DNA of 50,083 bases, taken from NCBI GenBank assembly GCA_903927945.1, contig CAIYOZ010000082.1, positions 1-50,083 of the forward strand. Direction: 5' to 3'. This DNA is from an uncultured Bacteroidales bacterium (GTDB lineage Bacteria > Bacteroidota > Bacteroidia > Bacteroidales > Paludibacteraceae). Shown one piece after another: positions 24,569 to 48,071 of this stretch; position 1 is the first letter of the stretch; every line of letters begins with the position of its first letter. The translations under genes were made by a program, and so were the position numbers. The notes under the pieces were generated by a model that was given only the letters and a program-made list of their open reading frames with translations, was not told where the DNA came from and searched no databases.

Positions 24569-24671
24569 ATGGGACTTGGCTACCTCATTTTGATCCGGTT
24601 TCCGTTTAAGGGTAAAGGGAAAAATTTAATTCTAATCAATACTATCCAATCCCCCTTTAGGGGCTAGGGGT
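24554..24671. repeat. Paired inverted repeat of the CCCCTTTAGGGG family, ABC gap
   Basis: The left arm (24554-24574, ACCCCCAACTCCTAAATGGG) and right arm (24651-24671, CCCCCTTTAGGGGCTAGGGG) are diverged inverse copies. The left arm includes the stop codon of the first ABC gene; the right arm ends 13 bases before the second ABC gene. Related pairs lie at 35795-35874, 36295-36422 and 42067-42119. Confidence 0.75.
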
Positions 24672-34011: not shown

Positions 34012-34689
34012 TTAACCGTTCTGACTAATGAGCAGTAGGGATTTTTTATTCAAAATCTCAATTTGTTTACCGGTCATTTTGATGATACCATCACCCTCAA
34101 ATTCATTCAGGATGCGGCTGATACTTTCGCGACTGGTATCCACGAGATTCGCTAATTCAGCTTGCGAAAGCGGCAATACAAACGTGTCGGATTTAAAGAT
34201 ATTATCCGAGAATTCCAATATGGCATCAGCCATGTTGCCACGAATGAGCTTTTGGGTACGATTGGCACACCGGCGGAATGATTCCACTTCGTTCTTGCAA
34301 AATTCCTGAATAAGCTCGTGGGTAAATTCTTTATTTTCATCGATAATCTTCAGAAAAACTTCCAGGTCGATAAAACAAACTTCAGCATCAGATACTGCAG
34401 TCACAGAATATTGATTGATTTTACTGCCAAAAGTGGTGGGTAAACCCAGGTAGCTCGGTGCATTGACCATCTTTACAATTTGCTCGTTGTAAGGTCCTGC
34501 AATATGAATTTTGGCCAGCCCGGTGCGCAAGAATATCACATTCGTTGAATAGGTGCCCTGTTTAATAATCGAATCGCCTTTTTTCAATTTGAGCTCCAGA
34601 TGGTTTAAACTAAGCTGGTCCAGGCTACTTTCACCCAACATGGATGTTGCCTTGGTTTTAAACAGACAATTTCTACAATCGTTTAGCAT
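34012..34689 (-). CDS. Crp/Fnr family transcription regulator
   Basis: The 225-residue protein has a cyclic-nucleotide-binding-type domain (residues about 25-115: KKGDSIIKQGTYSTNVIFLRTGLAKI), a dimer helix and a C-terminal winged HTH (LSQAELANLVDTSRESISRILNEFEGDGII, 173-203). The recognition helix TSRESISRIL keeps the Arg, Glu and Arg (187, 188, 192) that contact TGTGA in E. coli CRP. Cys5 and Cys8 (CRNC) at the start, plus Cys105, 131 and 141, leave open iron-sulfur or redox sensing, but this is not the FNR pattern. I chose the ATG at 34689 over one 30 bases upstream because it begins at the family-typical ML..C..C. It is divergent from the sulfur-carrier/Hdr operon, with a matching palindrome between. 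Confidence 0.93.
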   Translation of the reverse strand: MLNDCRNCLFKTKATSMLGESSLDQLSLNHLELKLKKGDSIIKQGTYSTNVIFLRTGLAKIHIAGPYNEQIVKMVNAPSYLGLPTTFGSKINQYSVTAVSDAEVCFIDLEVFLKIIDENKEFTHELIQEFCKNEVESFRRCANRTQKLIRGNMADAILEFSDNIFKSDTFVLPLSQAELANLVDTSRESISRILNEFEGDGIIKMTGKQIEILNKKSLLLISQNG

Positions 34690-34716
34690 AGGACTTGAAT
34701 TTAAAGGAATAAGATG

Positions 34717-34724
34717 CAAATATA
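34717..34724 (-). promoter_or_regulatory. Candidate -7 box of the Crp/Fnr gene
   Basis: On the minus strand this reads TATATTTG. The palindrome at 34730-34745 lies directly upstream, overlapping the zone where RNA polymerase binds, so autorepression would be expected. Confidence 0.5.
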
Positions 34725-34729
34725 TGCAA

Positions 34730-34745
34730 TGTGATGCATATCACA
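34730..34745. promoter_or_regulatory. CRP-type operator palindrome
   Basis: TGTGA-TGCATA-TCACA is an exact match to the TGTGA-N6-TCACA consensus of CRP. It lies between the divergent regulator gene and the DsrE-TusA-Hdr operon, about 76 bases upstream of the expected operon start. Confidence 0.75.
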
Positions 34746-34841: not shown

Positions 34842-35417
34842 ATGGTCACTATGGAAGCCACACAGGAAATTACAATTCAGGAACTTCAATTGCAGATTGA
34901 TGCATTGAAAAAGAAAGTCAATAAACTCGAAAAGAGTCGCAAAGATCAGTTATCAATAGCTGTAGTTTCAGGCGATATGGATAAAGTATTAGCCGCTATG
35001 GTTATTTCTTTAGCCGCTGCAGCCATGGATACCCAGGTAAAACTGTTCTTCTCATTCTGGTCACTTTCAGCATTGCGTGATCCAAACAAGAGTCCGAAAG
35101 GAAAAGACTTTATCTCTAAGATGTTTGGTATCATGCTACCAAAAGGCAAAGATAAACTGTCTTTATCGAACATGAATATGGGCGGCATGGGTCCTCTGAT
35201 GATTAAAATGCTCATGAAAAAGCAACATGTCATGTCATTGGGCGAAATGTTTAAACAAGCCGGTGAACTCGGAATCGAAATAACCATCTGCGAAATGTCC
35301 ATGGGATTAATGGGTTTCAAAAGCGAGGAAATGATCGACTATCCGCATTTACGTTATGCAGGTGCAGCAACTTTCGTGGCTGATGCCGGCGAAAGCGCGA
35401 TACAGTTGTTTATTTAA
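34842..35417 (+). CDS. DsrE/DsrF-like (DsrE2-type) protein
   Basis: The 191-residue protein starts with a coiled helix (residues about 5-35) followed by a DsrE-like domain: LSIAVVSGDMDKVLAAMVISLAAAAMDTQVKLFFSFWSLSAL, a Met-rich loop, and GIEITICEMSMGLMGFKSEEM with Cys150 at the position of the persulfide-carrying Cys in DsrE2 proteins. These pass sulfane sulfur between carriers. It is the first gene of the operon, followed by TusA. The long hydrophobic stretch at about 49-75 could attach it to the membrane, as proposed for DsrE2. Its sulfur donor and acceptor are not shown by the sequence. Confidence 0.9.
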   Translation: MVTMEATQEITIQELQLQIDALKKKVNKLEKSRKDQLSIAVVSGDMDKVLAAMVISLAAAAMDTQVKLFFSFWSLSALRDPNKSPKGKDFISKMFGIMLPKGKDKLSLSNMNMGGMGPLMIKMLMKKQHVMSLGEMFKQAGELGIEITICEMSMGLMGFKSEEMIDYPHLRYAGAATFVADAGESAIQLFI

Positions 35418-35422
35418 TAGAG

Positions 35423-35468
35423 TAAATTGGTTGATTGGTTAATTGGTTAATTAGGTAATTAGTTAACA
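35423..35468. repeat. TTGGTTAATT repeat between dsrE-like and tusA-like genes
   Basis: TTGGTTGATTGGTTAATTGG units occupy the gap after the DsrE-like stop, the same family as at 1661-1700. AAGTAAGCGAGAAAACAAG repeats follow. Confidence 0.65.
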
Positions 35469-35535
35469 AGTAAGCGAGAAAACAAGTAGACAATTCAACA
35501 ACACAAAAACAACAACAATTCAAAATCATAACATT

Positions 35536-35784
35536 ATGGCAACAGATTTAAAAAGTTTAAAATCAGATTTAGTAGTAGATGCTCGTGGAACCGCATGTCC
35601 CGGACCATTATTGGCTGCAAAGAAAGCAATCGGCGAATTAGAATCAGGCGAAATTATGGAAATTCTTTCGGCTGATGAAGGTACCAAAAACGACATTCCA
35701 CGTTGGTGCGATAAAGTGGGTCATGAATATCTTGGTTTCTACGACGAAGATAGCTTCAGCCGCTTGTTTTTAATCAAAGAATAA
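35536..35784 (+). CDS. TusA/SirA-like sulfur carrier
   Basis: The 82-residue protein has the TusA fold: VVDARGTACPGPLLAAKKAIGELESGEIMEILSADEGTKNDIPRWCDKVGHEYLG. Cys21 in CPGP is the sulfur-carrying residue, and the Asp-Ile-Pro turn with the following Cys is typical of the family. It should take persulfide sulfur from a partner, here probably the DsrE-like protein, and pass it on. The next gene, 107 bases downstream, is an MvhD-like protein; the gap holds an inverted-repeat pair. Confidence 0.93.
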   Translation: MATDLKSLKSDLVVDARGTACPGPLLAAKKAIGELESGEIMEILSADEGTKNDIPRWCDKVGHEYLGFYDEDSFSRLFLIKE

Positions 35785-35794
35785 AAACTAAACG

Positions 35795-35874
35795 ACCCCC
35801 AACCCCTAAAGGGGAGTTGAGGTTAGTACAGTTTTATATAAACAGTGCTAATTTCCCTTTTAGGGGTTAGGGGT
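35795..35874. repeat. Paired inverted repeat of the CCCCTTTAGGGG family, tusA-mvhD gap
   Basis: Arms at 35795-35815 (ACCCCCAACCCCTAAAGGGG) and 35854-35874 (TTTTAGGGGTTAGGGGT) are near-perfect inverse copies 38 bases apart. They fill almost the whole gap between the two genes. Confidence 0.8.
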
Positions 35875-35890
35875 CATATTTATTACGACT

Positions 35891-36319
35891 ATGTCAACAT
35901 CTCCAAAGATTCTGGTTTTTTCGACCGATAAGATTTCCGACCCGGGAATTGATCAGGCAGGATTACGGAAAATACATTACGCTCCCTCCGTATATGTGAT
36001 CAGCTTACCTTGTTCCTCCGGCATCAAGCCCAGATGGATAATCCACGCGCTGGAACATGGATTCGATGGTGTTTTTATTGCAGCCGATGGGCACGAATGC
36101 TCGTATAGTTCGCGTTGTGCAGAACATACCAACAATATTGTGGAAGTTTCACAAGAATTGATGAAAGAAAAAAATATTAATCCCCGTCGAGTGCGCATGG
36201 CAGCACTATGTTCTGTATGTGCCGAACCGTTTATGAATCATATGGAGAACTACGGGAAGATTTTAGCAGAATTACCCCTAACAGAAAAGAAAGAACCCCC
36301 AGCCCCTAAAGGGGAATAA
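35891..36319 (+). CDS. MvhD-like (hydrogenase iron-sulfur subunit family) protein
   Basis: The 142-residue protein is of the MvhD/FlpD family, which binds an iron-sulfur cluster and links HdrA to an electron donor. Seen: ILVFSTDKISDPGIDQAG, VISLPCSSGIKPRWIIHALEHGFDGVFIAADGHECSYSSRC, and ALCSVCAEPF. Cysteines are at 41, 70, 76, 107 and 110. The usual N-terminal CxxC of MvhD (CNWC) is missing, replaced by STDK, while a CSVC pair occurs later. In Desulfovibrio QmoB a related domain is fused to HdrA; here it is separate and precedes the HdrA gene. The C-terminal residues EPPAPKGE come from a repeat arm (36295-36315), so the natural end may be near residue 133. Confidence 0.87.
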   Translation: MSTSPKILVFSTDKISDPGIDQAGLRKIHYAPSVYVISLPCSSGIKPRWIIHALEHGFDGVFIAADGHECSYSSRCAEHTNNIVEVSQELMKEKNINPRRVRMAALCSVCAEPFMNHMENYGKILAELPLTEKKEPPAPKGE

Positions 36320-36422
36320 GATAAGAAACTAATGATTATTTTAAACAAATATCATGATTGAGACTATTAAAGAGAACAAACAAGAAAATACTAATCTTAA
36401 TTCCCCTTTAGGGGTTAGGGGT
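36295..36422. repeat. Paired inverted repeat spanning mvhD stop and hdrA start
   Basis: Arms at 36295-36315 (ACCCCCAGCCCCTAAAGGGG) and 36402-36422 (CCCCTTTAGGGGTTAGGGG) are inverse copies. The first encodes the last residues of the MvhD-like protein, the second encodes NSPLGVRGN near the start of HdrA. Confidence 0.8.
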
Positions 36423-39254
36423 AATCCTCACTACGATGCATTAGTTATTGGAGGCGGAATTGCCGGTCAGGAAGCAGCATTAAGCCTTGCGGATATGGGT
36501 CATGAAGTGCTGCTGGTTGATAAGGCACTCTCGATAGGTGGTAAAATGATTCAGCTCAGCAAAGTGTTCCCCACACTGGACTGTGCAGCCTGTATCACCA
36601 CTCCCAAGATGTCGGAGACGGCCCGTCACCCGAAAATCACCTTGATGCTCAACAGCGAAATTGATGGAATTACGAAAGAGGGTGATGATTTTGAAGTACA
36701 GGTCTCTAAGAAAGCCCGCTACGTGATTCAGGAAGATTGTACCGGTTGTGCACAATGTGAGGCGGTGTGTCCTGAAGTGCGGAGCGACGATTACAATGCT
36801 AACCTGGCAGGACGGAAAGTGGCCTATATTCCCTTCAACCTGGCAAACCCACGCATTGCCACGATCGACCGTCAAGGTCACTCTGCTCCGTGTATTAACG
36901 AATGTCCTGGAGGCGTAAAAGCTTACGGATTTGTATCACTTGCGCGTAACGGACAGTATGAAGAAGCTATGAAGCTTCATCTCGAAGATATACCATTCCC
37001 CGGAAGTTTGGGTCGTGCATGTTACGCACCTTGCCAGAATGCCTGTACACGTGTCGGTTTGGAAGGTTCAGTGGATATCCGTAAAACCAAGCGCTTTTTT
37101 GCTGACTGGTATTACGAAAAATATCCTGAGGCAACTGCAGTGGAAATAAAGAATAGAACAGACAAGAAAATTGCCGTTATCGGGTCAGGTCCTGCCGGCA
37201 TCACTGCGGCCTATCATTTGGCTTTGAAAGGTCATACGGTGACCATATTCGAAGCAGCACCTGCCGCAGGGGGTATGTTGCGGTTGGCCTTACCGGAATA
37301 CCGTGCACCAAAAAGTGTGGTGGATCGTGATTTAAAGAATATCACCGTTCTTGGAGTTAAAATTGAAGTAAACAAAAAGATAACGGATTTAGAAGCATTG
37401 AAAAATGAAGGTTATGATGCCGTATTTGTATCGGTGGGTACACATGATGCAGTAACTTCCAAAACTGAAGGATCCGATTTAAAAGGTATTGTTGATTGTC
37501 TTCATTTTCTGAGAGAATCGAATATTGGTCAGAAAGAAGATTTGAAAGGCAAATGCGTGATGGTCATTGGGGGTGGTAACACGGCCATTGATGCAGCACG
37601 TACTTCCTTGCGTCTGGGTGCTGAAAAGGTAACGGTTGTTTATAGACGCAGCCGGGAAGAAATGCCCTGTTTTGCTCCCGAAATTCATGAAGCTGAAGAA
37701 GAAGGTGTAGAAATAGTAATTCTGCGTAATCCGGTGAAATACATGGGTAAAAATGGTCAAATCAAACAAGTTCAGTTAGTAAAAATGCAACTGGGTGAAA
37801 AAGATGCGAGTGGCCGTCGCAGTCCTGAACCGGTAAAAGGATCGGAATATATCGAGAATGTGGATTATGTGATCGAAGCAATCGGTTTGAAACCTTCCAC
37901 TTCACCCTTTGCAGGACAAATTGAGTTGAATAAAAACGGAACCATTGTGGCCAACAAAAAAACGCTGCAAACTTCCGTAGCATTTATATTTGCAGGTGGT
38001 GATACCGTTACCGGCGCAACCACGTTGATTGAAGCTGCCGGACAAGGTAAAAAAGCTGCATTCTACATGGACAAATACTTACGGGATTTGAACATGGAAG
38101 ATTATGAAGACGGCGACAAATTACCGGCTATCGACAAAAACATCGTATTAAAAAAATACGATGGCAACGTAAAACCCGCTATACCAGGAGGCATGATGCC
38201 ACTTGCCCAACGTGCAACAAGTTGGGAAGAAGTAGAACAAACGTTCACAGAAGCTGAATTGAAAGCCAGTACCGAACGTTGCCTGGATTGCAGCAATTGC
38301 CGCGAATGTCATCAATGTGTGACGGCATGTCCTTCAAATGCAATCGACTTTAAGCAAAAAACACAAGTGGTGAATACAACCGTCAAATCGGTGGTGGTCA
38401 CTACAGGTTATAATTTATTTCCTCCAACCGGGAAACCAAATTACGGGTATTCAAAATATGCCAATGTGATTGACTCCATGCAAATGGATCGATTAATTGC
38501 TCCTACGCGTCCGTACAACAATGTGCTTCGTCCTGGTGATGGCAAGACGCCTGATAATATTGCTTATGTGCTTTGTACAGGTTCACGTGATTCGGCCATT
38601 GAAAACTCCGGTTGTGGTGCCGATTGCGCCAATAATCCTATATGTTCGCAGATTTGCTGTATGTATTCCATCAAGCAAGCGCAACTTCTTATGGGTGCGT
38701 TGCCTATGGCCGACATTACCATTTACTACATGGATATCCGTGCATTTGGTAAAGGGTACGAAGAATTCTTTCAGGAATCGAAAGCGATGGGAGTGAACTT
38801 TGTAAAAGGGAAAGTGGCTAAAATCAGGGAAAATGAAAATGGCAGCGGTGACCTGATTATTCGTTACGAAGATGTTACCAAAGGGGTGGTAAAAGAAGCA
38901 AAACACGATGTGGTAGTACTTTCTGTTGGAGTTGTTCCCAATAAAAATGTTCCTCAGATGTTTAATAATCAGGTATTGGAACTGGACGACTTTAATTTTG
39001 TAAAACAAACCGATGAACTTATTAATCCGGCATTGACAAGTATCGAAGGTGTTTTTGTGGCTGGTGCAGCATCAGGACCAAAAGATATTCCTGATTCAAT
39101 TTTTTCGGCTGGATGTGCAGCTTCGGAGGTTGACGGATATTTGAACAGGATACAAGAATCAAGAACCAAGAGCCAAGAATCAAGAACCAAGAGCCAGGAA
39201 CCAAGAGTCAAGAACCAGGAACCAAGATTCAAGACAATAGATACAAGAGTGTAA
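36354..39254 (+). CDS. HdrA with inserted GltD/NfnB-type NAD(P)H module (QmoA-like)
   Basis: The 966-residue fusion starts as HdrA: FAD motif VIGGGIAGQEAA (31-42), DCAACITTPKM (Cys77, Cys80), and a [4Fe-4S] site CTGCAQCEAVC (129-139). Residues about 177-575 are a GltD/NfnB-type module: CINECPGG and CYAPCQNAC cysteines, FAD GSGPAG (277-282), NAD(P)H site GGGNTA (406-411). HdrA then resumes with a second ferredoxin-like site CLDCSNCRECHQCVTAC (643-659) and the C-terminal HdrA half (CTGSRDS, CCMYSIKQAQ, FVAGAASGPKDIPDS). It should take electrons from NAD(P)H and split or pass them through two flavins. Residues 12-26 and 931-966 are encoded by intergenic repeats. The family-like start is near residue 27, but no ATG is there; the ATG at 36354 is the only good one. 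Confidence 0.9.
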   Translation: MIETIKENKQENTNLNSPLGVRGNPHYDALVIGGGIAGQEAALSLADMGHEVLLVDKALSIGGKMIQLSKVFPTLDCAACITTPKMSETARHPKITLMLNSEIDGITKEGDDFEVQVSKKARYVIQEDCTGCAQCEAVCPEVRSDDYNANLAGRKVAYIPFNLANPRIATIDRQGHSAPCINECPGGVKAYGFVSLARNGQYEEAMKLHLEDIPFPGSLGRACYAPCQNACTRVGLEGSVDIRKTKRFFADWYYEKYPEATAVEIKNRTDKKIAVIGSGPAGITAAYHLALKGHTVTIFEAAPAAGGMLRLALPEYRAPKSVVDRDLKNITVLGVKIEVNKKITDLEALKNEGYDAVFVSVGTHDAVTSKTEGSDLKGIVDCLHFLRESNIGQKEDLKGKCVMVIGGGNTAIDAARTSLRLGAEKVTVVYRRSREEMPCFAPEIHEAEEEGVEIVILRNPVKYMGKNGQIKQVQLVKMQLGEKDASGRRSPEPVKGSEYIENVDYVIEAIGLKPSTSPFAGQIELNKNGTIVANKKTLQTSVAFIFAGGDTVTGATTLIEAAGQGKKAAFYMDKYLRDLNMEDYEDGDKLPAIDKNIVLKKYDGNVKPAIPGGMMPLAQRATSWEEVEQTFTEAELKASTERCLDCSNCRECHQCVTACPSNAIDFKQKTQVVNTTVKSVVVTTGYNLFPPTGKPNYGYSKYANVIDSMQMDRLIAPTRPYNNVLRPGDGKTPDNIAYVLCTGSRDSAIENSGCGADCANNPICSQICCMYSIKQAQLLMGALPMADITIYYMDIRAFGKGYEEFFQESKAMGVNFVKGKVAKIRENENGSGDLIIRYEDVTKGVVKEAKHDVVVLSVGVVPNKNVPQMFNNQVLELDDFNFVKQTDELINPALTSIEGVFVAGAASGPKDIPDSIFSAGCAASEVDGYLNRIQESRTKSQESRTKSQEPRVKNQEPRFKTIDTRV
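39152..39235. repeat. CCAAGA repeat inside the hdrA C-terminus
   Basis: Tandem (AA)CCAAGAGCCAAGAATCAAGAA units encode the low-complexity tail QESRTKSQESRTKSQEPR of HdrA. They are followed by a four-helix-bundle gene and then by the same repeat in tandem hairpins (39642-39855). Confidence 0.85.
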
Positions 39255-39290
39255 AATTTCAAGTTGTAACGTAAGAAATAAGACAAGAAT

Positions 39291-39641
39291 ATGCCTAATT
39301 TTAAGAAGTTAGATATTTGGATTAAATCTATGAATATAGTCACTGAAATCTACCAAATTACAAATACTTTTCCAAGTTGTGAAAGATTTGGTTTAGTATC
39401 ACAAATGCAAAGATCTGCAGTTTCGATTCCGACTAATATTGCTGAAGGCTCTGCAAAAACAAGTAATAAAGATTTTGCCCGATTTTTAGAAATGTCATCC
39501 GGTTCTGCTTTTGAGTTAGAAACTGAAATGATTGTTTCGTACAACTTGAAATATATTGATACAATTATTTATGAAAATCTTTTAACCGGGATTTCAGAGA
39601 TTCAAAAAATGATTTATGGTTTTAAAAACAAACTGGAATAA
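39291..39641 (+). CDS. Four-helix-bundle protein (23S rRNA intervening-sequence S23 type)
   Basis: The 116-residue protein has the S23/bIVP pattern: FKKLDIWIKSMNIVTEIYQITNTFPSCERFGLVSQMQRSAVSIPTNIAEG, then DFARFLEMSSGSAFELETEMIVSYNL, a helical bundle that forms a pentamer in relatives. The family occurs inside 23S rRNA intervening sequences and as the Avd accessory protein in diversity-generating retroelements, but no rRNA or reverse transcriptase is here. It lies within the Hdr operon with CCAAGA repeats on both sides, which suggests insertion as a unit. Its codon use is more AT-rich than HdrA. Function unknown; it is not expected to belong to the electron-transfer complex. Confidence 0.9.
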   Translation: MPNFKKLDIWIKSMNIVTEIYQITNTFPSCERFGLVSQMQRSAVSIPTNIAEGSAKTSNKDFARFLEMSSGSAFELETEMIVSYNLKYIDTIIYENLLTGISEIQKMIYGFKNKLE

Positions 39642-39855
39642 AGAGCCAAGAACCAAGATCCAAGATGCTAATAGTCTTGATTCTTGACTCCTGATTCTAA
39701 TAATCTAAAAACCAAGAGCCAAGAGCCAAGAAACAGGATGCTAATAGTCTTGGTTCTTGACTCCTGATTCTAATAATCTAAAAACACACATTGAATTAAG
39801 TCGAATAATCAAAGACATGCTAACTGTCTTGATTCTTGGTTCTTGATTCTAATAG
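39642..39855. repeat. Three tandem hairpin repeats with CCAAGA/TCTTGG arms
   Basis: A unit of about 70 bases (CCAAGA copies, TGCTAATAGTCTTG, TCTTGACTCCTGATTC, TAATAATCTAAA) occurs twice in full (about 39642-39709 and 39710-39782) and once in part (about 39810-39855). Each has CCAAGA and TCTTGG arms that can pair. The last ends 10 bases before the second HdrA gene. Confidence 0.8.
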
Positions 39856-39865
39856 TCTAAAATAT

Positions 39866-42061
39866 ATGAAAGAAAGAATAGGTGTCTATATTTGTCATTG
39901 CGGCGGGAATATATCCGATTACGTAGATGTGGAAGAATTGGGTAAAATGTTTCATAAAGAGGAAAATGTTATCATTTCAAAAGATGTAATGTTTGCCTGT
40001 GCCGATTCCAACCAGAAAGACATGGTGAAAGATATTCAGGAAAACAATCTGGATGCTATCGTAGTTTGCTCTTGCTCACCAAAACTACATTTACATACGT
40101 TTAAAAATGTGGCTTCGCGTGCAGGTTTGAATCCTTCCAATTATGTTCAGGTGAATATCCGTGAACAATGTTCATGGCCTCACAGCGACCGTCCCCGCGA
40201 AGCAACGGTAAAAGCCGCCGGATTGATCCGTGCAGGAATAAACCGTGTTTCTTTTTCAGAATCGTTGGAGAATATTGAACTTTCAGTGAAGAAAACTGCC
40301 CTGGTGGTTGGGGCCGGAGTTGCCGGAATGAAAGCCGCTATTGAACTGGCAAAAAGTGGTAATGAAGTGTATCTTCTGGAAAAAGATTATTTTGTAGGAG
40401 GACGCATTGCCCAGAAAGATAGTTTGTTCATGTCGGGTCAGAAAGGAAAGGATATTGTTGCTTCTTTGTACGAAGAAATCAGAAAGCAACCTAATATCAC
40501 TTTGTTTACCGGAGCTACCATCGAAAAAGTTTCAGGAAGTCTTGGAAATTTTCATATCGATATTAAGGTTAAACCTCGTTTTATCAATGGAAAAGCCGAT
40601 AAACAAGCTGTAAAACGTGCCATGGAAGAATGCCCGGTTTCGGTAGATGATGCTTTTAATATGGGATTGACAAAACGCAAAGCCATTTATAAAAACTATC
40701 CCGAAGCTTTGCCTGATGTTCCTGTAGTTGAAGCCGGATTATTGAAAGATGAAACCGATTTCGTTGCCAAATTCGCTTCAACTTTGAACATGAACGAGCA
40801 GGACGAAACTCTTTCGTTTATCGTTGGTTCGGTTCTGATAACAACCGGTTTCGATAATTATCAACCCAAAGAAGGTGAATTTGGTTACAAAACCATAGAT
40901 AATGTGGTTACGCTTCCTGAATTGAACCGTTTGATAGAGCTGTGTCCCGAAAAACTGGTTTACAAAGGCAAGCAAATAAAGACTGTTGCATTTATCTATT
41001 GTGTGGGTAGTCGTCAGAAAAAAGGGGATAATAAATATTGCTCGCGTCAATGTTGTACCTCCACCATTCACACTTCGTTGCAACTGAAAGAAAAATATGA
41101 AAAGATACAGACTTATCACGTTTACCGCGATATACGGACTTATGGAAAGCAAGAGATTTTGTATGCCCAATCGTCGAAACAGGGCGATTTGTATTTCAAA
41201 TACGAAGACAAGGAATTGCCATTAGTAGAACTTGATGGTAAATCGACTATTTTGAAAGTAAAAGATTACCTGACATCTAAACAGGAACTGGAAATTGAAG
41301 CTGATTTGGTTGTTTTGGTTACCGGAATGGTACCTCGAGAAGATTCAACTCATATATCCGAACTTTTCAAAATCCCTATTGGAAGGGATAAGTTCTTCAA
41401 CGAAATTCACCCTAAACTGAAACCGGTGGAAACAGTTATCAAAGGAGTTTATATTGGCGGAACCTGTCAGGGACCTAAAAATGTGAGTGAATCGGTACAA
41501 TCGTCATTGGCAGGTGCTTCAAAAATCACAGCATTACTTAAGAGCGGGACTGTTTCGGTCGATCCAATCATAGCACGGGTGAACGCTGATGCATGTACCT
41601 GGTGCGGAAAATGTGCCGAAGTGTGTGACTACACAGCTATTAAAGAGGTGGAAGTAGATGGCAAGCGCATTGCAGCAGTGAATACTGCGGTATGTACCGG
41701 TTGTGGCATGTGTGCTCCTGTTTGTCCTGTAAACGCTATTGAAATTGCGCAGTACACCGATCACGAAATTGAATCAATGATTGATGGTTTTATGCAGGAG
41801 GTGCAAATCAGGGAAAAAGAAGTTAATCCGGAAGAAGTTCAAGAAGAAGGGAAAGTGGGCATGAAAGAATATCCGCAAGTTTGGAAAGAAATTCTGGCAG
41901 GAATGACAGAGGAGAAAAACACTATTCCTCAAATTATAGCCAACTCAAAAATTGCCGGCGAATTAGTTACGTTCCACTTGATGACCATGAATCGTTACGG
42001 CGTGGTTGTTCCCGCAGGAATGGATGCGAAAGAAGAATATTTTTATTATAAAAAGAAATAA
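39866..42061 (+). CDS. HdrA/QmoB-like flavoprotein
   Basis: The 731-residue protein is a second HdrA. It starts RIGVYICHCGGNISD with Cys10 and Cys12, followed by the VCSCSPKLHLHTF motif (Cys68, Cys70) and QCSWPH (Cys102). FAD binding is at VVGAGVAGMKAA (148-159) and VGGRIA. YCVGSR and YCSRQCCTSTIHTSLQLK follow. Two ferredoxin sites near 577-620 (CTWCGKCAEVC and CTGCGMCAPVC) close the HdrA part, and a tail of about 100 residues follows. It is expected in the cytoplasm at the membrane, passing electrons between the first HdrA and the QmoC-like subunit. The ATG at 39866 is chosen; an upstream in-frame start would lie inside the repeat. Confidence 0.93.
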   Translation: MKERIGVYICHCGGNISDYVDVEELGKMFHKEENVIISKDVMFACADSNQKDMVKDIQENNLDAIVVCSCSPKLHLHTFKNVASRAGLNPSNYVQVNIREQCSWPHSDRPREATVKAAGLIRAGINRVSFSESLENIELSVKKTALVVGAGVAGMKAAIELAKSGNEVYLLEKDYFVGGRIAQKDSLFMSGQKGKDIVASLYEEIRKQPNITLFTGATIEKVSGSLGNFHIDIKVKPRFINGKADKQAVKRAMEECPVSVDDAFNMGLTKRKAIYKNYPEALPDVPVVEAGLLKDETDFVAKFASTLNMNEQDETLSFIVGSVLITTGFDNYQPKEGEFGYKTIDNVVTLPELNRLIELCPEKLVYKGKQIKTVAFIYCVGSRQKKGDNKYCSRQCCTSTIHTSLQLKEKYEKIQTYHVYRDIRTYGKQEILYAQSSKQGDLYFKYEDKELPLVELDGKSTILKVKDYLTSKQELEIEADLVVLVTGMVPREDSTHISELFKIPIGRDKFFNEIHPKLKPVETVIKGVYIGGTCQGPKNVSESVQSSLAGASKITALLKSGTVSVDPIIARVNADACTWCGKCAEVCDYTAIKEVEVDGKRIAAVNTAVCTGCGMCAPVCPVNAIEIAQYTDHEIESMIDGFMQEVQIREKEVNPEEVQEEGKVGMKEYPQVWKEILAGMTEEKNTIPQIIANSKIAGELVTFHLMTMNRYGVVVPAGMDAKEEYFYYKKK

Positions 42062-42066
42062 TAACG

Positions 42067-42119
42067 ACCCCCAACCCCCTAAAGGGGGCTTTTTGACTCC
42101 CCTTTAGGGGGTTGGGGGT
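42067..42119. repeat. Perfect paired inverted repeat, QmoB-QmoC gap
   Basis: Two perfect 21-base inverse arms (42067-42087 and 42099-42119), built on CCCCCTAAAGGGG, lie 11 bases apart between the second HdrA gene and the QmoC-like gene. It is the best-kept member of the family and would make a very stable hairpin in the mRNA. Confidence 0.9.
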
Positions 42120-42133
42120 AAATCTTAATTAAT

Positions 42134-43186
42134 ATGTCAAGAGTTAATCCTGAATTTGCAACTGAACTTAAGAAATACGGAGCGAGTGATTTTAGTGCCT
42201 GTTTCAATTGCGGAAACTGTACGGCAACCTGTGCGCTCTCAACAACCGACAGTTCTTTTCCTCGCGAAATGATCCGTTACAGTACATTAGGCCTGGAAGA
42301 TGAAATCAAAGCATCATTAAAACCATGGCAGTGTTATTATTGTGGCGAATGTTCTTCGGAATGCCCAAGACAAGCTGAACCTGGAGAGTTAATGATGTCA
42401 CTCCGTCGCTGGTTGACGGCTAAATACGACTGGACCGGTTTGTCCGGATTGATGTATAAATCATTGCCGGCAAGTATTACGGCATTCGTTCTTACATTTA
42501 TTGGTGTGTTGGCATTTGCTTTTCAGTCAGATTTTGACCTGGAACACATGATGCACGTGGGTCATTTGTTCGAAAGCATTGCTATTGCATCCATCATGGT
42601 AGTGATTTTTGTTCCGAATATCATTCGCATGTGGTATTTCACTATCCTAGAACCGAAGACAAAAGTATCGTTTAAGAATTATGTTAGCAGCATTGGGGAG
42701 TTTTTCGTAACCATGTTCGTTCAAAAACGTTCATTGGATTGTGAAGATAATCGCTTCCGTTGGTTCGAACATTTCATATTGGTTCTCGGCTATTTATCAC
42801 TACTCTTTACAACAGTTTTCATGGACTGGTTCTCTTCACAATATACATTCGTCATTGTATTTGGATATGTAGTAAGTGCCATTGTATTTGTGGTAACAAT
42901 AGATTTTGTAAATAGTCGCATGAAAAAGAAAAAAGTGATGAATCAACATTCACAACCTTCCGATTGGTTCTTTGTCATCTGGTTGTTCCTGATGGGATTG
43001 ACAGCCTTTATGACCCGTCTGTTTATCGACCTGGATATCCTGGAAATGAATAAATGGTTGTATATTCTTCATTTCACCATTTTGGTACAATGGGCTTTAA
43101 TTATCGTACCTTTTGGTAAATGGACACACTTTTTGTACAGATCCTTTGCAATGTACTTCGCTAAGTTGAAAGAAGTAAGCAAATAG
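42134..43186 (+). CDS. QmoC-like (HdrC-HdrE fusion) membrane iron-sulfur/cytochrome b protein
   Basis: The 350-residue protein joins an HdrC-like part with two [4Fe-4S] sites (CFNCGNCTATC, Cys23-33, and CYYCGECSSEC, Cys67-77) to a membrane part with six hydrophobic segments from about residue 110. Histidines in HMMHVGHLFES, FEHFILVLGY, LHFTILVQW and WTHFLYR could bind haem b as in NarI/HdrE-type subunits. It should exchange electrons with the menaquinone pool. This is the fusion found as QmoC in sulfate reducers, but no apr, sat or dsr gene is in the window. A terminator follows, so it is the last gene of the operon. Confidence 0.92.
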   Translation: MSRVNPEFATELKKYGASDFSACFNCGNCTATCALSTTDSSFPREMIRYSTLGLEDEIKASLKPWQCYYCGECSSECPRQAEPGELMMSLRRWLTAKYDWTGLSGLMYKSLPASITAFVLTFIGVLAFAFQSDFDLEHMMHVGHLFESIAIASIMVVIFVPNIIRMWYFTILEPKTKVSFKNYVSSIGEFFVTMFVQKRSLDCEDNRFRWFEHFILVLGYLSLLFTTVFMDWFSSQYTFVIVFGYVVSAIVFVVTIDFVNSRMKKKKVMNQHSQPSDWFFVIWLFLMGLTAFMTRLFIDLDILEMNKWLYILHFTILVQWALIIVPFGKWTHFLYRSFAMYFAKLKEVSK

Positions 43187-43250: not shown

Positions 43251-43290
43251 AGTTTATTTGATTGAAATCATATAAGATTTGTTTGTTTAT

Positions 43291-43308
43291 AGTGAGCATA
43301 TGTTCATA
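43291..43308. promoter_or_regulatory. Imperfect operator copy upstream of the DUF134 gene
   Basis: AGTGAGC-ATAT-GTTCATA shares its right half and spacing with the perfect palindrome at 43757-43774 and lies just upstream of the promoter box at 43317. Confidence 0.4.
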
Positions 43309-43316
43309 ACTATTTG

Positions 43317-43324
43317 TACCTTTG
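43317..43324 (+). promoter_or_regulatory. Candidate -7 box of the DUF134 gene
   Basis: TACCTTTG matches TAnnTTTG. Transcription near 43331 gives a leader of about 20 bases, which also supports the ATG at 43351 over the upstream in-frame start. Confidence 0.65.
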
Positions 43325-43350
43325 CCATCACAATTCAACTGAAAAATAAT

Positions 43351-43761
43351 ATGGCACGTCCAAAACAAGATCGAAAAATCGGTCATCCGCCACTTATGCA
43401 GGGATTCAAGCCTTTTGGCATTCCACCTCATTTATTAAGTTCCGTTTCATTGCTTTTTGATGAGTATGAAGCCATTCGTTTACTCGATTATGAAGGAATG
43501 AATCAGGAGCAAGCCGCAGAAAAGATGAACGTATCCCGACCCACGTTGACCAGGATTTACGAAAAAGCCCGCAAAACGTTGGCAACTGCTTTTGTAGAGG
43601 GGAAAATGATTATAATTGAAGGAGGAAATGTACAGTTCGAGAAACAATGGTTCCGTTGTAAAAGATGCTTTAAATTAATAGGTGGATTAGAGAACCATGT
43701 ACGATGCATTAATTGTAAAAATTACTTTACTGATGAACTAACGCCAATAAATAAAATATGA
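43351..43761 (+). CDS. DUF134 family regulator with C-terminal zinc-ribbon-like cysteines
   Basis: The 136-residue protein starts MARPKQDRKIGHPPLMQGFKP, the DUF134 opening. It has a sigma-70 region 4-like HTH (LFDEYEAIRLLDYEGMNQEQAAEKMNVSRPTLTRIYEKARKTLATAF) and ends with FRCKRCFKL and HVRCINCKNYF, two CxxC pairs likely to bind zinc. Members are presumed DNA-binding and often occur beside NifX/NifB-like genes, as here (45287-45670). A palindrome in its 3' end and an imperfect copy at its promoter may be its own sites. The in-frame ATG at 43279 lies upstream of the promoter box and is rejected. Confidence 0.92.
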   Translation: MARPKQDRKIGHPPLMQGFKPFGIPPHLLSSVSLLFDEYEAIRLLDYEGMNQEQAAEKMNVSRPTLTRIYEKARKTLATAFVEGKMIIIEGGNVQFEKQWFRCKRCFKLIGGLENHVRCINCKNYFTDELTPINKI

Positions 43762-43774
43762 ACCATAGTTCATA
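43757..43774. promoter_or_regulatory. Palindromic candidate operator before the methyltransferase gene
   Basis: TATGAAC-CATA-GTTCATA, a perfect 7+7 palindrome with a four-base spacer. It overlaps the DUF134 stop codon and lies 44 bases before the methyltransferase start. Confidence 0.5.
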
Positions 43775-43817
43775 ATTGTTTCAATTAAAAATCAAACAAT
43801 AATATAAAATCAATATA

Positions 43818-44420
43818 ATGAAAGATACTTTTGTTGAGAAAGCTGCCAATTGGGATAGCCCGGATAAAATAAAAATGACCAAGATATTTCTGAGTGAAAT
43901 GCTATTTCATATCAATCCACAATCCAGTTGGAAAGCATTGGAAATTGGTGCAGGAACTGGATTAGTCGGACTCAATGTAGAGCCCTTAGTAGGTAAAGTG
44001 GTTATGGTGGATACATCTGAATCTATGTTGGAAGTATTAAAGCAGAAGTTACACGATGATAGCAAAGTTGAGTTATTACACGGTGAAATATTTAAGTACA
44101 AACAACAAGATATTGATTTTGTATTCTCTGCTATGGCATTTCATCATCTCACTGATGTTGAAAAAGCAATACAACATTTGGCAACAATTACAAAACCCGG
44201 TGCATGGGTGGTTGTAGGTGATTTGGTAACAGAAGATGGTTCGTTTCACAGCTTTGAGCTAATACCTTATTGTGGATTTGATACTACAGTATTATCAAAG
44301 CAATTCGTTCAGGCTGGCTTTTATGTAAAACTGGTAAAAATATACAATGTCATAACCCGCACAATTGACGAAAAAACAACAAATTACGAACAATTTATAT
44401 TGATTGCTAAACGATTGTAA
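43818..44420 (+). CDS. Class I SAM-dependent methyltransferase
   Basis: The 200-residue protein has motif I ALEIGAGTGLVGL, motif II VVMVDTSESMLEVLK, and motif IV DFVFSAMAFHHLTDVEKAI, all typical of small-molecule methyltransferases of the UbiE/Methyltransf_11 type. It is soluble. It lies between the DUF134 and MBL-fold genes with small gaps, in an apparent operon. Its substrate is unknown; metal or metalloid methylation would suit the neighbours, but nothing in the sequence proves it. Confidence 0.93.
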   Translation: MKDTFVEKAANWDSPDKIKMTKIFLSEMLFHINPQSSWKALEIGAGTGLVGLNVEPLVGKVVMVDTSESMLEVLKQKLHDDSKVELLHGEIFKYKQQDIDFVFSAMAFHHLTDVEKAIQHLATITKPGAWVVVGDLVTEDGSFHSFELIPYCGFDTTVLSKQFVQAGFYVKLVKIYNVITRTIDEKTTNYEQFILIAKRL

Positions 44421-44434
44421 ACCAAAATAACAAG

Positions 44435-45268
44435 ATGAAAATAGTTGTTTTATCGGATAACAGGCAATTGCAGGAAGCTCTTGAATTTGAACACGGACTA
44501 TGTGTATACCTGGAAACAGAGAAGTACAAGTGTTTACTTGATACAGGTGCTTCCAATATGTTTGTGCACAATGCCGAACAAATGGTTATTGATTTGGCAG
44601 ATGTTGATTATGTTTTTATTTCACACGGACATTCCGATCATATTGGTGGATTGCAATCCTTTTTAGAAATAAACAGCAAGGCAAAAATAATTATGTCTCA
44701 CAATGCACTTTCACAACGCTTCTTCTCAGAAAGAAAAGGATTGAATGAAATTAGCAGTAAAATTGACATAAGTAATTACCTCGACCGTTTTATTTTTATC
44801 GATGAATATACAGAATTTGAGAATGAAATTTTTGTCTTTCCATGTCGACAATCAATTTATTCCATGCCCAAAGCCAACCGTTCTTTAATGAGTGCAGATT
44901 CCAATGGACTCAAAACAGACAATTTTAATCATGAAATAGTTGTTTGTTTTGGCCAAAAAGATTTATTGGTTTATACAGGTTGTGCCCACCATGGAGTATT
45001 GAATATTTTGAATTCTGTTCAAAGCATCACCCAAAAGCAAATTTCAACCCTTATCGGTGGTTTTCATTTATTGGATGGATACCCTGATCAATATGAAACT
45101 GATGAGGAAATAAATGAAATTGCAGAAAGTTTGCATGTTAAATATAGTGATACAATGATTTATACAGGGCATTGTACCGGAAATAACGTTTTCAGTTTAT
45201 TAAAGAAAAAATTAGAAGACAAATTGATATTTTTTCATACTGGCTTTACTTTTTTTATTCATAAATGA
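44435..45268 (+). CDS. MBL-fold metallohydrolase
   Basis: The 277-residue protein has the metallo-beta-lactamase metal motif FISHGHSDHIGGLQ (HxHxDH), preceded by CLLDTGAS. Later ligands are in VYTGCAHHGVLNIL and YTGHCTG. The order and length match the subgroup annotated as dihydropterin-aminobenzene-phosphate synthase-like, seen in anaerobes next to NifX-like genes. It probably binds two metal ions. Gaps are 14 bases to the methyltransferase and 18 to the NifX-like gene, so all three are one operon. Its substrate is not known. Confidence 0.92.
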   Translation: MKIVVLSDNRQLQEALEFEHGLCVYLETEKYKCLLDTGASNMFVHNAEQMVIDLADVDYVFISHGHSDHIGGLQSFLEINSKAKIIMSHNALSQRFFSERKGLNEISSKIDISNYLDRFIFIDEYTEFENEIFVFPCRQSIYSMPKANRSLMSADSNGLKTDNFNHEIVVCFGQKDLLVYTGCAHHGVLNILNSVQSITQKQISTLIGGFHLLDGYPDQYETDEEINEIAESLHVKYSDTMIYTGHCTGNNVFSLLKKKLEDKLIFFHTGFTFFIHK

Positions 45269-45286
45269 TAAATTCAAAAAAACAAA

Positions 45287-45670
45287 ATGAAAATTGCAGT
45301 ACCAACAAAAGAAAACAACCAAATTGATGCACATTTTGGTCATTGTGAATTCTATAGAATTTACACAGTTTCAGAACAAAATCAAGTTATCTCAGAAGAA
45401 AGAATGGATTCACCCCAAGGTTGTGGTTGTAAATCAAACATTGCACAAGTATTCGAAAATGAAGGAATTAGAATTATGTTAGCCGGTGGAATAGGCGATG
45501 GTGCTATCAATACGTTAAATGCACACGGTGTCAATGTAATACGAAATTGCCAGGGCGATGTGACAGAACTCGTTCAACAATACTTAGCCGGAAAAATTAA
45601 AGATAGTGGAACAAATTGTGCGGCTCATTCCACCGACCACGAAGATGAACATGTTTGCAATCATAACTAA
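45287..45670 (+). CDS. NifX/NifB-type dinitrogenase cofactor-binding domain protein
   Basis: The 127-residue protein starts MKIAVPTKENNQIDAHFGHCEFYRIYTV and continues GCGCKSNIAQVFENEGIRIMLAGGIGDGAINTLNAHGVNVI, the standard single-domain NifX/NafY-like fold. The His/Cys-rich end (CAAHSTDHEDEHVCNHN) could bind metal. Proteins of this type in non-diazotrophs include the orange proteins that carry Mo-Cu-S clusters. No nitrogenase genes are near. It overlaps no gene and is followed after nine bases by the thioesterase. Confidence 0.93.
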   Translation: MKIAVPTKENNQIDAHFGHCEFYRIYTVSEQNQVISEERMDSPQGCGCKSNIAQVFENEGIRIMLAGGIGDGAINTLNAHGVNVIRNCQGDVTELVQQYLAGKIKDSGTNCAAHSTDHEDEHVCNHN

Positions 45671-46118: not shown

Positions 46119-47012
46119 ATGTTTGATTTTCGTTTAAAGGTTTTTCATACAGTTGCCAAACGCCTCAACTTCACTAAGGCTGCTGATGAACTATGTATCA
46201 CCCAACCTGCTGTCTCAAAGCATATACAGGAAATAGAGAATTACTTTCAGCTAAAGTTATTTGACCGGAATGGAACTAAAATAAAACTAACGGAGGCAGG
46301 AGAAATTCTACTGGAATACGCGAACCGGATATTTACCATATACAGCAACCTGGAATTTGAACTAAACGCCCTAAATCAACGACATAACGGCAAATTACGC
46401 ATAGGAGCCAGTACAACCATAGCCCAGTACATATTACCCCCGTTGTTAGCTGCTTTCCATAAAAAGTTTACGGATATTAAAGTCACCTTATTGATTAACA
46501 ATACTGAGCAGATTGAACTGGCACTGCAAAACAAGGATATAGACTTTGGCATTATTGAAGGTCAATCAAAAAATACTTTGTTTAAATACACTGAATTTAT
46601 GAAAGATGAGATCGTACTGGTGGCCAATATCTCTCATCCAATGGCAGGAAAAGAAATGATTCAACCGGATGAATTGCTTAAAACGCCACTATTGTTAAGA
46701 GAACCCGGTTCAGGGACCTTGGAGGTTATAGCTCATGCATTAAAACCATTAGGCATTAAAACATCCCAGCTTCAAACTGAAATGCAGTTAGGCAGCACCG
46801 AAAGTATTAAATCCTATTTGTTACATTCCGATTGTATGGCTTTTCTTTCATTACATTCCATTTTAAAAGAACTTAAAAACAAAGAAGTCACTATTATAGA
46901 TGTGAATGGTCTCGATATCGAACGAACTTTTCACTTTATTCAATCCTATGGCGAAGCAGAAGCCCTACCCGAGCTATTCATGAGATTTGTCAACCACTAT
47001 AACTTCAGGTAA
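46119..47012 (+). CDS. LysR family transcription regulator
   Basis: The 297-residue protein has the LysR N-terminal HTH (FDFRLKVFHTVAKRLNFTKAADELCITQPAVSKHIQEIENYFQLKLFDRNGTKIKLTEAG) and a substrate-binding domain beginning GKLRIGASTTIAQYILPPLLAAFHKKF. That start (GASTTIAQYILP) resembles the CysB/CbbR/YeiE group. The next gene, 102 bases downstream, is a YeiH-type exporter. In enterobacteria YeiE controls yeiH and responds to sulfite, so the same pairing is plausible here; gene order differs (same strand, not divergent). A candidate promoter for the exporter lies at 47057-47064. Confidence 0.95.
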   Translation: MFDFRLKVFHTVAKRLNFTKAADELCITQPAVSKHIQEIENYFQLKLFDRNGTKIKLTEAGEILLEYANRIFTIYSNLEFELNALNQRHNGKLRIGASTTIAQYILPPLLAAFHKKFTDIKVTLLINNTEQIELALQNKDIDFGIIEGQSKNTLFKYTEFMKDEIVLVANISHPMAGKEMIQPDELLKTPLLLREPGSGTLEVIAHALKPLGIKTSQLQTEMQLGSTESIKSYLLHSDCMAFLSLHSILKELKNKEVTIIDVNGLDIERTFHFIQSYGEAEALPELFMRFVNHYNFR

Positions 47013-47056
47013 TGAAGCATTACAAATAACTATTTCTTTGCTCTTTCAATCCTGAT

Positions 47057-47064
47057 TACCTTTG
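47057..47064 (+). promoter_or_regulatory. Candidate -7 box of the YeiH-type exporter gene
   Basis: TACCTTTG fits TAnnTTTG. Transcription near 47071 supports the ATG at 47115 as the start of the exporter gene. Confidence 0.6.
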
Positions 47065-47114
47065 TATCCTCAATAAACAAGATATTCAAATTGGAAAAAA
47101 CATCATGGAACAAC

Positions 47115-48071
47115 ATGGAACAAAAGACTAACAGACATTTTTTTCTCCGTATTACTTTAAAAGGAATGCTTTTTATTCTTGTGGCGGCATGTTGTTTGAC
47201 CCCTTTTATTTCTCCTCCTATTGCTTTGTTTTTAGGTTTAGTTTTTGCACTGTCACTGGGAGCTCCATTTCCACGCTTTAACAGCAAAATGTCCAAATAT
47301 CTGCTTCAAGTATCTGTTGTAGGGTTGGGATTTGGCATGAATCTACATGATTCGGTTAAAGCAGGTTCCGATGGAATGCTTTTTACCTTATTTTCAGTGG
47401 TGAGCGTTATGTTTATTGGTGTAATGCTAGGCAAATGGCTCAGGATTCCCAATGTGGCTGCGTATTTAATTGCTTCGGGTACTGCCATCTGCGGAGGTAG
47501 TGCCATCGCTGCTGTTGGTCCTATTGCAAGGGCCAAAGAAAGCGAAATGTCAATAGCCCTCGCTACGATCTTTGTATTGAACGCCCTGGCGCTATTCCTA
47601 TTCCCCGTATTGGGACATTGGTTTCACCTCTCGCAACAACAGTTCGGTATGTGGGCGGCAATAGCTATACATGATACCAGTTCTGTTGTTGGAGCAGGAG
47701 CCACGTTTGGGGAAGAAGCCATGAAAGTAGCTACGACGGTGAAACTTACCCGTGCTTTATGGATTATTCCATTGTCTGTTTTCACATCGTTCTATTTTAA
47801 ATCGAAGGGCGACAAGGTATTTATTCCCTGGTTTATCCTGTTTTTTATTCTGGCCATGGTCTTAAATACCTATCTGAAAATCCCATCAACATTGACGCAT
47901 GGGATTGTAACCGTTGCCAAACAATGTTTAACCTTAACGCTCTTCTTTATTGGTGCCGGACTGTCACGTGCCGCACTTAAAATGGTCGGAGTAAAACCTT
48001 TGGTCCTGGGAGTTATACTCTGGTTTTTTATAGCCGTGATCAGTCTGTCAGTTGTTTACTTTATATATTAA
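47115..48071 (+). CDS. YeiH family putative sulfate/sulfite exporter
   Basis: The 318-residue protein has about ten membrane segments. The family motif appears in YLLQVSVVGLGFGMNL, SGTAICGGSAIAAVGPIARAKESE and HDTSSVVGAGATFGEEAMKVATTVKLTRALWIIP, all hallmarks of the YeiH (UPF0324, PSE) family. Members are called sulfate exporters on weak evidence. The in-frame TTG at 47091 is possible, but the ATG at 47115 lies after the promoter box and is preferred. The neighbours, a LysR gene and a TauE/SafE permease, support a role in handling sulfite or related sulfonates. Confidence 0.93.
   Translation: MEQKTNRHFFLRITLKGMLFILVAACCLTPFISPPIALFLGLVFALSLGAPFPRFNSKMSKYLLQVSVVGLGFGMNLHDSVKAGSDGMLFTLFSVVSVMFIGVMLGKWLRIPNVAAYLIASGTAICGGSAIAAVGPIARAKESEMSIALATIFVLNALALFLFPVLGHWFHLSQQQFGMWAAIAIHDTSSVVGAGATFGEEAMKVATTVKLTRALWIIPLSVFTSFYFKSKGDKVFIPWFILFFILAMVLNTYLKIPSTLTHGIVTVAKQCLTLTLFFIGAGLSRAALKMVGVKPLVLGVILWFFIAVISLSVVYFIY

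Follow-up and report, generated by a model that had tools for sequence, protein, structure and literature searches.

The window analysed here, positions 1 to 50,083 of contig CAIYOZ010000082.1 (50,083 nucleotides; assembly GCA_903927945.1) from an uncultured Bacteroidales bacterium of the family Paludibacteraceae, carries an operon of six named genes, co-oriented on the plus strand at 34842-43186, that encode a DsrE2-like protein, a TusA-like sulfur carrier, a separate MvhD protein, two HdrA proteins (HdrA1 and HdrA2) and a QmoC-like membrane subunit. This block is real and widespread and brings known modules together in a way that has apparently not yet been described; its function we infer. 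We tentatively read the operon as encoding a menaquinone-linked HdrA-type oxidoreductase with a persulfide relay as its partner, which would reduce sulfane sulfur to sulfide, and we give this reading slightly less than an even chance. The formation of a complex, its persulfide substrate, its direction and any bifurcation are each predicted from sequence.

Conservation and spread of the block

Every one of the six gene names is backed by Pfam or NCBIfam, the model collections against which ten proteins of the window were scanned, and the intergenic gaps measure 118, 106, 34, 36, 194 and 72 bases when an additional small gene between the two HdrA genes is counted (Table 1). A QmoC profile, searched against 84,980 species genomes, returned at least 594 pattern-matching stretches, 344 of them encoding a relative. 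The best 80 of these 344 loci were kept, giving 81 loci together with the window, and the spread described here is accordingly a lower bound. Linkage was counted in the 55 of the 81 loci with 6 kb or more of sequence ahead of QmoC, the 26 shorter ones being left out. TusA, MvhD, HdrA1 and HdrA2 are found upstream of QmoC on the same strand in 53 of these 55, a conservation that excludes a chance gathering of the six genes, and the locus maps show the block genes in the order of the window. Both loci without the full block (L145 and L151) carry hydrogenase-like genes. Another 27 loci, drawn from the window's own family and in part on the same contigs as in the best-80 set, have the same gene order as far as the stretches extend.

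The relay genes are closely tied to the block. TusA, detected in 56 of the 81 loci, lies 16-186 bases from MvhD in 53 of 55, and in 49 of the 54 loci with at least 700 bases ahead of TusA, a DsrE-family gene precedes it by no more than 1.5 kb; in the remaining five it is downstream (four loci) or on the other strand (L152). The kind of DsrE protein differs by locus, being DsrE2-like, a shorter relative of about 140 residues or a DsrE of about 122 residues, and the window's own protein scores 59.4 bits on the DsrE2 equivalog NF047629, for which the cut-off is 210. The candidate sulfur-carrying residues are invariant, Cys150 of the DsrE2-like protein in 50 of 50 sequences and Cys21 of TusA in 52 of 52, and five cysteines of MvhD are conserved in 74-82 of 82 sequences. 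The initial annotation had proposed a six-gene operon that links a Qmo/Hdr-type complex to DsrE and TusA in a member of the Bacteroidota, and both the linkage and the recurrence of the gene order in other genomes bear this out. Its description of the complex as fused to a sulfur relay holds for the gene linkage and fails for the proteins, the relay proteins being products of separate genes.

Carriers include Paludibacter, which provides the nearest named relatives, Petrimonas sp. IBARAKI (L090, a complete genome), Proteiniphilum, Fermentimonas and Lentimicrobiaceae, and, beyond the Bacteroidota, metagenome-assembled genomes (MAGs) labelled Krumholzibacteriota, Planctomycetota, Verrucomicrobia and Chthonomonas. 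Nine genomes of an even draw of 395 from the Bacteroidota matched HdrA1 at 1e-100, most of them by its GltD part only. Of 300 genomes from the window's family, 47 matched HdrA1.

Table 1. Location of the block genes and associated features in the window
Feature	Coordinates	Strand	Support
Crp/Fnr-family regulator, divergent from the operon	34012..34719	-	PF13545, PF00027 over cut-off
Crp-type palindrome TGTGATGCATATCACA in the promoter region shared by the Crp gene and dsrE2	34730..34745	.	
DsrE2-like sulfur carrier, conserved Cys150	34842..35417	+	PF13686, 146.8 bits (cut-off 25)
TusA-like sulfur carrier, CPGP motif (Cys21)	35536..35784	+	PF01206, 73.4 bits
Separate MvhD/FlpD electron-transfer protein	35891..36319	+	PF02662, 91.1 bits
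HdrA1 (QmoA-like), 966 residues, GltD/NfnB module within	36354..39254	+	HdrA models; GltD-type models mid-protein
GltD/NfnB insertion, about residues 175-638, NADP(H)-type motif GGGNTAIDAARTSLRLGA...YRR	36876..38267	+	
23S-rRNA-intervening-sequence-type four-helix protein	39291..39641	+	PF05635, 127.9 bits
HdrA2 (QmoB-like without MvhD), 741 residues, C-terminal dicluster ferredoxin domain	39836..42061	+	
HdrA2 C-terminal tail; its homologue in relatives is a separate winged-helix-like protein of about 92 residues	41786..42058	+	
QmoC-like membrane subunit, two [4Fe-4S] motifs	42134..43186	+	NF038018, 155.3 bits (cut-off 300)

The two HdrA subunits and the GltD/NfnB insertion

In the methanogen HdrA (5ODC), Lys409, at the flavin N5, is described as the hydrogen-bond partner of the bifurcating flavin adenine dinucleotide (FAD) (PMC6405883). 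The equivalent position is Lys774 in HdrA1, as located by motif, and His412 in HdrA2, as counted by hand from an alignment. A motif search finds the lysine in 55 of 55 HdrA1 sequences as against 8 of 74 HdrA2 sequences, the other 66 having histidine (45), tyrosine (10), glutamine (6), phenylalanine (3), asparagine (1) or arginine (1). Seven of the eight lysine-keeping HdrA2 proteins come from L142, L143, L145 and L151, which are hydrogenase-type loci (the L143 stretch is cut off too early to reveal a hydrogenase gene); the eighth belongs to L149. A DCxxC motif is similarly present in 55 of 55 HdrA1 and 4 of 74 HdrA2 sequences. Since the lysine and the DCxxC motif are kept in HdrA1 and mostly lost in HdrA2, the roles of the two subunits appear to be divided, unlike in the three apr-linked Qmo sets that we compared, where QmoA and QmoB alike have the flavin lysine.

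The winged-helix-like part at the end of HdrA2 is a separate gene of 80-130 codons in 50 of the 80 loci, located between hdrA2 and qmoC (for example L129, 9717-9995). Helix-turn-helix matches of the separate form (to an ArsR-type hidden Markov model) are weak, and the window's own tail gives none over the cut-off. Kinship with DsrD was considered and rejected, as neither Pfam nor NCBIfam returned a DsrD match.

In 14 of 74 paired loci HdrA1 is interrupted by the GltD/NfnB module, some 1390 bases inserted at a single fixed position (HdrA1 leaves off after residue 174/175 and continues at 638/639); in nearly all other paired loci, some of the 74 being mis-paired, the two halves of HdrA1 join directly. 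For a tree, 14 rows that were cut, combined mis-paired HdrA1 and HdrA2 or belonged to another operon type were dropped (L083, L095, L097, L106, L107, L120, L124, L135, L142, L143, L145, L150, L151 and L161), leaving 60 rows, 14 with the module and 46 without; L083 and L095 nevertheless carry it. This quick tree, which has SH-aLRT (Shimodaira-Hasegawa-like approximate likelihood ratio test) support alone and several long branches flagged, requires a minimum of two gains or losses of the module, and Paludibacter and Petrimonas each include HdrA1 proteins with and without it. Among the 47 family genomes that match HdrA1, 20 have the module and 27 are matched by the part behind it alone, in open frames of 433-493 residues; its absence is seen in 12 of these 27. 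Single TGA codons in the family matches were considered as selenocysteine codons, a reading that was dropped since in L070 they are by eye ordinary gene ends adjoining the next gene. Confined to a subset, the insertion was rejected as a core part of the system, and the coupling to NAD(P)H first suggested for the complex thus remains a prediction for the window's own subtype and falls as a general property.

The module aligns with Thermotoga NfnB (4YLF/4YRY) and with Stn-type proteins, and more strongly with chains of 9BOV, 9N5U and 8OH5. Its YRR motif suggests a preference for NADP(H) over NAD(H). In NfnB, Arg187 is described as contacting the bifurcating FAD (PMC6405883). The module has Arg317 at this place, as counted by hand in the alignment, and the residue is conserved in 25 of 25 sequences. 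The motif is also common to ordinary GltD, and its conservation is therefore no proof of bifurcation.

QmoC, marker genes and surroundings of the block

Four histidines of QmoC (His144, His213, His313 and His332), invariant in 11 sequences and present in 80, 85, 82 and 85 of 85 in a wider set, would fit as ligands for two haems b. On NF038018 the three block-type QmoC proteins scored reach 154-162 bits, as against 391.5 and 386.6 bits for the apr-linked QmoC proteins of L176 and L177. To place the block relative to sulfate-reduction genes we used a set of 41 genomes, namely 26 of the 47 family matches and the genomes of 15 of the 80 loci, all of which hold the block except for one cut locus with the QmoC end alone (L106). 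AprA scores over its cut-off in five of them, the Bacteroidales genomes G697-G700 (of L117, L126, L128 and L129) and the Planctomycetota genome G702 (of L147). DsrA over the cut-off and the homomeric ATP sulfurylase Sat (TIGR00339; the heterodimeric CysND type was not searched) are each found in one genome, G702. DsrC occurs in nine of the 41 and in none of the 26 family genomes, and the transporter YeeE/YedE (PF04143) in 16, four of them family genomes. All five genomes with AprA have aprB, aprA, qmoA, qmoB and qmoC together, away from the DsrE/TusA-linked block; in the four Bacteroidales carriers this cluster (L173-L176, in the genomes of L129, L128, L126 and L117, respectively) is on another contig than the block. 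The QmoB proteins of L173, L176 and L177 match MvhD within one protein, whereas mvhD is a gene of its own in the window. The genomes of L173-L176 also have DsrC, yet gave no DsrA and no TIGR00339 match.

The window is contig C82 of a MAG (G000) of 4.47 Mb in 450 contigs, with a completeness of 97.7% and a contamination of 4.6%. Searching this whole genome gave a best AprA match of 20.8 bits against a cut-off of 641.75 and no match to DsrA, TIGR00339 Sat, DsrC or YeeE/YedE. This extends to the genome the observation of the initial annotation that apr, sat and dsrAB are missing from the window, and at 97.7% completeness the absence of aprAB from the organism is likely rather than proven. The accompanying observation of a missing HdrB holds for the operon and does not extend to the genome: PF02754 (the CCG domain of HdrB) is absent from the operon and found in G000 on contigs C178 and C431 only, the latter carrying an hdrC-hdrB-hdrA cluster (L010, 2347-5964) whose HdrB has two CCG domains.

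The surroundings of related blocks vary. Close to the block, six loci (L094, L100, L101, L103, L109 and L121) have an HdrC/HdrB pair, that of L109 scoring below the equivalog cut-offs. In L117, L126, L128, L129, L139 and L153, genes for rhodanese-domain proteins and for a porin precede the operon; five of these loci have YeeE/YedE there too, the L126 stretch starting later and its genome, G698, having YeeE/YedE as well; Pfam naming of this neighbourhood was done on L129 and L139 as representatives. Such neighbours point at sulfane sulfur being imported from outside. In L142, L145 and L151, as well as in L071 from outside the window's class, HdrA, QmoC and MvhD are accompanied by [NiFe]-hydrogenase-like genes and no TusA or DsrE match was obtained; the small subunit of L145 reaches 212 bits on VhuG (cut-off 450), while naming of the others relied on inspection by eye or on clustering. 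This core with an MvhGA-like [NiFe] hydrogenase is likely an H2:menaquinone relative of the block in Bacteroidota.

A divergent Crp-family gene adjoins the operon in many relatives, though not in all (for example, no match was found beside L062, L065 and L066). The box TGTGA-N6-TCACA is perfect in 41 of 47 non-identical divergent Crp/DsrE regions and has one mismatch in the other six; after clustering at 80% identity it is perfect in 29 of 35 and has one mismatch in six. It is mostly positioned about 90 to 132 bases ahead of the DsrE match. Random windows of the same loci yield 0.42 perfect boxes per set of 35, the regions being related and the trials not independent, and mononucleotide shuffles of 49 regions, a few of them present twice, once per orientation, yield 0.01. 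The box speaks for local control of the operon by the neighbouring Crp-family protein. A wide regulon in G000 was rejected: the genome has seven perfect sites, compared with three for the reversed control, and the six outside the operon are in or near open reading frames without evident sulfur role.

The small gene between the HdrA genes, of the 23S-rRNA-intervening-sequence type, has no match among those listed by tblastn (1e-4) in the 112 relatives' loci L051-L162. It was consequently rejected as a subunit of the complex and is probably a hitch-hiker. Small genes that resemble it by eye lie between aprB and aprA in L173 (8326-8694) and L176 (7462-7833), and the type is possibly mobile or hitch-hiking, favouring gaps in operons. 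A short element, AATTCCCCTTTAGGGG, has seven matches with no more than two mismatches (0.03 expected), at 35803, 35851, 36303, 36399, 42076 and 42095 in the operon and at 24648 outside it; two copies fall within genes, one at the end of mvhD and one at the start of hdrA1, and apparently make both proteins longer. The operon is followed at 43279-45670 by genes for a DUF134 protein, a methyltransferase, a protein of the metallo-beta-lactamase fold and a NifX-like protein, members of which set are also near the operon in L094, L100, L101, L103, L109 and L119. Further downstream (46119-48071) are a LysR regulator and a putative sulfate exporter of the YeiH family. YeiH relatives also occur near the operon in L060 (3203-4054) and L061 (1881-2732), perhaps linked to sulfite or sulfate.

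Possible activity and relation to known systems

In the mechanism that we tentatively propose, QmoC would form the membrane end, exchanging electrons with menaquinone through two [4Fe-4S] clusters and two haems b, and HdrA1 and HdrA2 would constitute the flavin and iron-sulfur core, in which the HdrA1 flavin alone would be suited to bifurcation or confurcation. MvhD would serve as the entry port for a soluble partner, and this partner would be the DsrE/TusA persulfide relay in place of the MvhGA-like [NiFe] hydrogenase of related loci; the relay is placed at this port mainly because those loci have hydrogenase genes instead. In the window's subtype the GltD/NfnB module of HdrA1 would bring in NADP(H). 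Sulfane sulfur on DsrE2/TusA would thus be reduced to sulfide with menaquinol and NADPH as donors (ferredoxin in the subtype without the module), and sulfide formation would act as an electron sink of anaerobic fermenters. The hosts of the block are anaerobic fermenters, and no later sulfite step was detected in most carriers, which makes the reductive direction somewhat likelier than the oxidative one in the window's organism. Sulfur use by Petrimonas sulfuriphila points the same way, though the literature checked did not confirm sulfur reduction by Petrimonas.

Several points weigh against sulfur reduction. The complex has no known sulfur-reducing site and the operon no CCG protein, and such a partner may act in trans, given the HdrC/HdrB pairs near six loci and the HdrB in G000. 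Menaquinol by itself is not reducing enough to drive sulfur reduction, and the module that would supply NADPH is missing in most relatives. A YeeE/YedE importer is missing in 25 of the 41 carriers, G000 included. To our knowledge, the TusA/DsrE-linked Hdr systems described so far run oxidatively, and the aprBA-qmoABC clusters of four Bacteroidales carriers fit oxidation better.

The last two points favour the opposite direction, which strikes us as unlikely overall while deserving serious weight: sulfane sulfur on TusA/DsrE, or sulfide, would be oxidised and the electrons passed to menaquinone and, via the NfnB module, to NADP+, the product being either sulfite or a persulfide, by analogy with sHdr systems or with sulfide:quinone reductase. 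In the carriers of L117, L126, L128 and L129, which combine aprB-aprA-qmoABC and DsrC with no DsrA or TIGR00339 match, the block complex could supply sulfite; rhodanese genes head the block in all four, and YeeE/YedE adjoins it in three and is found elsewhere in the genome of the fourth. Given these four and the analogy to sHdr, oxidation is quite possible in the AprAB-bearing carriers, and the enzyme may work in either direction. As a general function, however, oxidation has to account for the 36 of 41 carriers without AprA, and the 40 without Sat and DsrA, over the cut-offs, for the lack of HdrB in the operon and for the ten scanned window proteins including no LbpA-like protein (the genome was not searched for LbpA). 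The nearest cultured relatives are moreover fermenters with no obvious strong acceptor.

Rather improbable is a bifurcating NADPH or ferredoxin:menaquinone oxidoreductase with which DsrE and TusA would merely be co-regulated, serving persulfide homeostasis or sulfur supply. TusA also acts in biosynthetic relays, and in L142, L145, L151 and L071 hydrogenase genes accompany this core while no TusA or DsrE match was obtained, but the spacing of TusA and MvhD and the frequent DsrE-family gene upstream are tighter than co-regulation usually requires. An ordinary Qmo complex feeding electrons to adenosine 5'-phosphosulfate reductase would explain the QmoC-like domain order and the two HdrA-like subunits, but was rejected as highly improbable on account of the low QmoC score, the unfused MvhD, the lack of AprA over the cut-off in most carriers and the separate qmoABC beside AprA in the other five.

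The block shares parts with several known systems. QmoABC of type I, from sulfate reducers and Chlorobi, likewise has two HdrA-like flavoproteins and a haem b membrane subunit of the QmoC type; the block differs in a QmoC far under the equivalog cut-off, a separate MvhD, the linkage to DsrE/TusA, no AprAB partner having been found, and an HdrA2 from which the flavin lysine is gone, a residue retained by both QmoA and QmoB of the three apr-linked sets. Type II Qmo of Ammonifex and Vulcanisaeta is described as Qmo-like with HdrA-like sequence, with or without Apr/Dsr (PMC10504309); compared by description, not by sequence, it differs in that this account, as far as consulted, does not mention a linkage to DsrE/TusA. 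HdrL of Desulfobacterium autotrophicum, an HdrA with a glutamate-synthase/NADH-binding module next to mvhD, resembles in domain order the window's HdrA1, an HdrA with an inserted GltD/NAD(P)H module adjoining mvhD; one HdrL-mvhD pair is reported to precede dsrABC and other HdrL loci to hold formate dehydrogenase genes (PMC2702500), whereas the window's block has DsrE/TusA, a second HdrA and QmoC. The sulfur-oxidising sHdr systems (LbpA, TusA, DsrE) also have TusA/DsrE relay genes adjoining Hdr genes; unlike them, the window's operon has no HdrB, no LbpA was seen among its genes, and a QmoC membrane subunit is present. TusA and DsrE-family genes are likewise shared with DsrEFH type II, described beside qmoAB in archaea (PMC13293266), and with the YTD cluster, complete in Desulfobacterota and Nitrospirota only within the data of that study (PMC12998232). 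YeeE/YedE accompanies some relatives of the block and is lacking in the window's genome, and YTD clusters, as described there, are without Hdr or QmoC genes. HdrABC-MvhAGD of methanogens (5ODC) shares HdrA, MvhD, an HdrC-like domain and, in HdrA1, the bifurcating-flavin lysine; the window's operon has neither HdrB nor hydrogenase, and its HdrC domain is fused to a membrane haem domain. No description of the order DsrE-TusA-MvhD-HdrA-HdrA-QmoC was found in the open literature by titles and abstract openings, subscription papers lying mostly outside the search. The suggestion of an undescribed system is accordingly sustained for the gene order and weakened for its parts, HdrL, type II Qmo and the DsrEFH/qmoAB association being on record in the sources cited.

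It is conceivable, if doubtful, that the block represents a third cytoplasmic route of sulfane-sulfur redox chemistry beside Dsr and sHdr, in which a protein-bound persulfide would exchange electrons, by way of MvhD, with a bifurcating or confurcating flavin of HdrA type. This flavin would couple menaquinone to either NADPH or ferredoxin, and neither DsrAB nor HdrB nor lipoate would take part, on a core that swaps hydrogenase for the DsrE-TusA relay by lineage. The block also offers an evolutionary test of how HdrA cores exchange soluble partners, a hydrogenase or a sulfur relay, and of how they come to carry an NADP(H) module at a fixed site, and the complete genome of Petrimonas sp. IBARAKI provides a directly testable system. 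If our reading is true, anaerobic Bacteroidales seen as fermenters, among them Paludibacter, Petrimonas, Proteiniphilum and Lentimicrobiaceae MAGs, would possess a quinone-linked enzyme of sulfur metabolism, in most cases without the dsr or apr genes targeted by marker-gene surveys, and thereby a so far undescribed use of sulfur in their energy metabolism.

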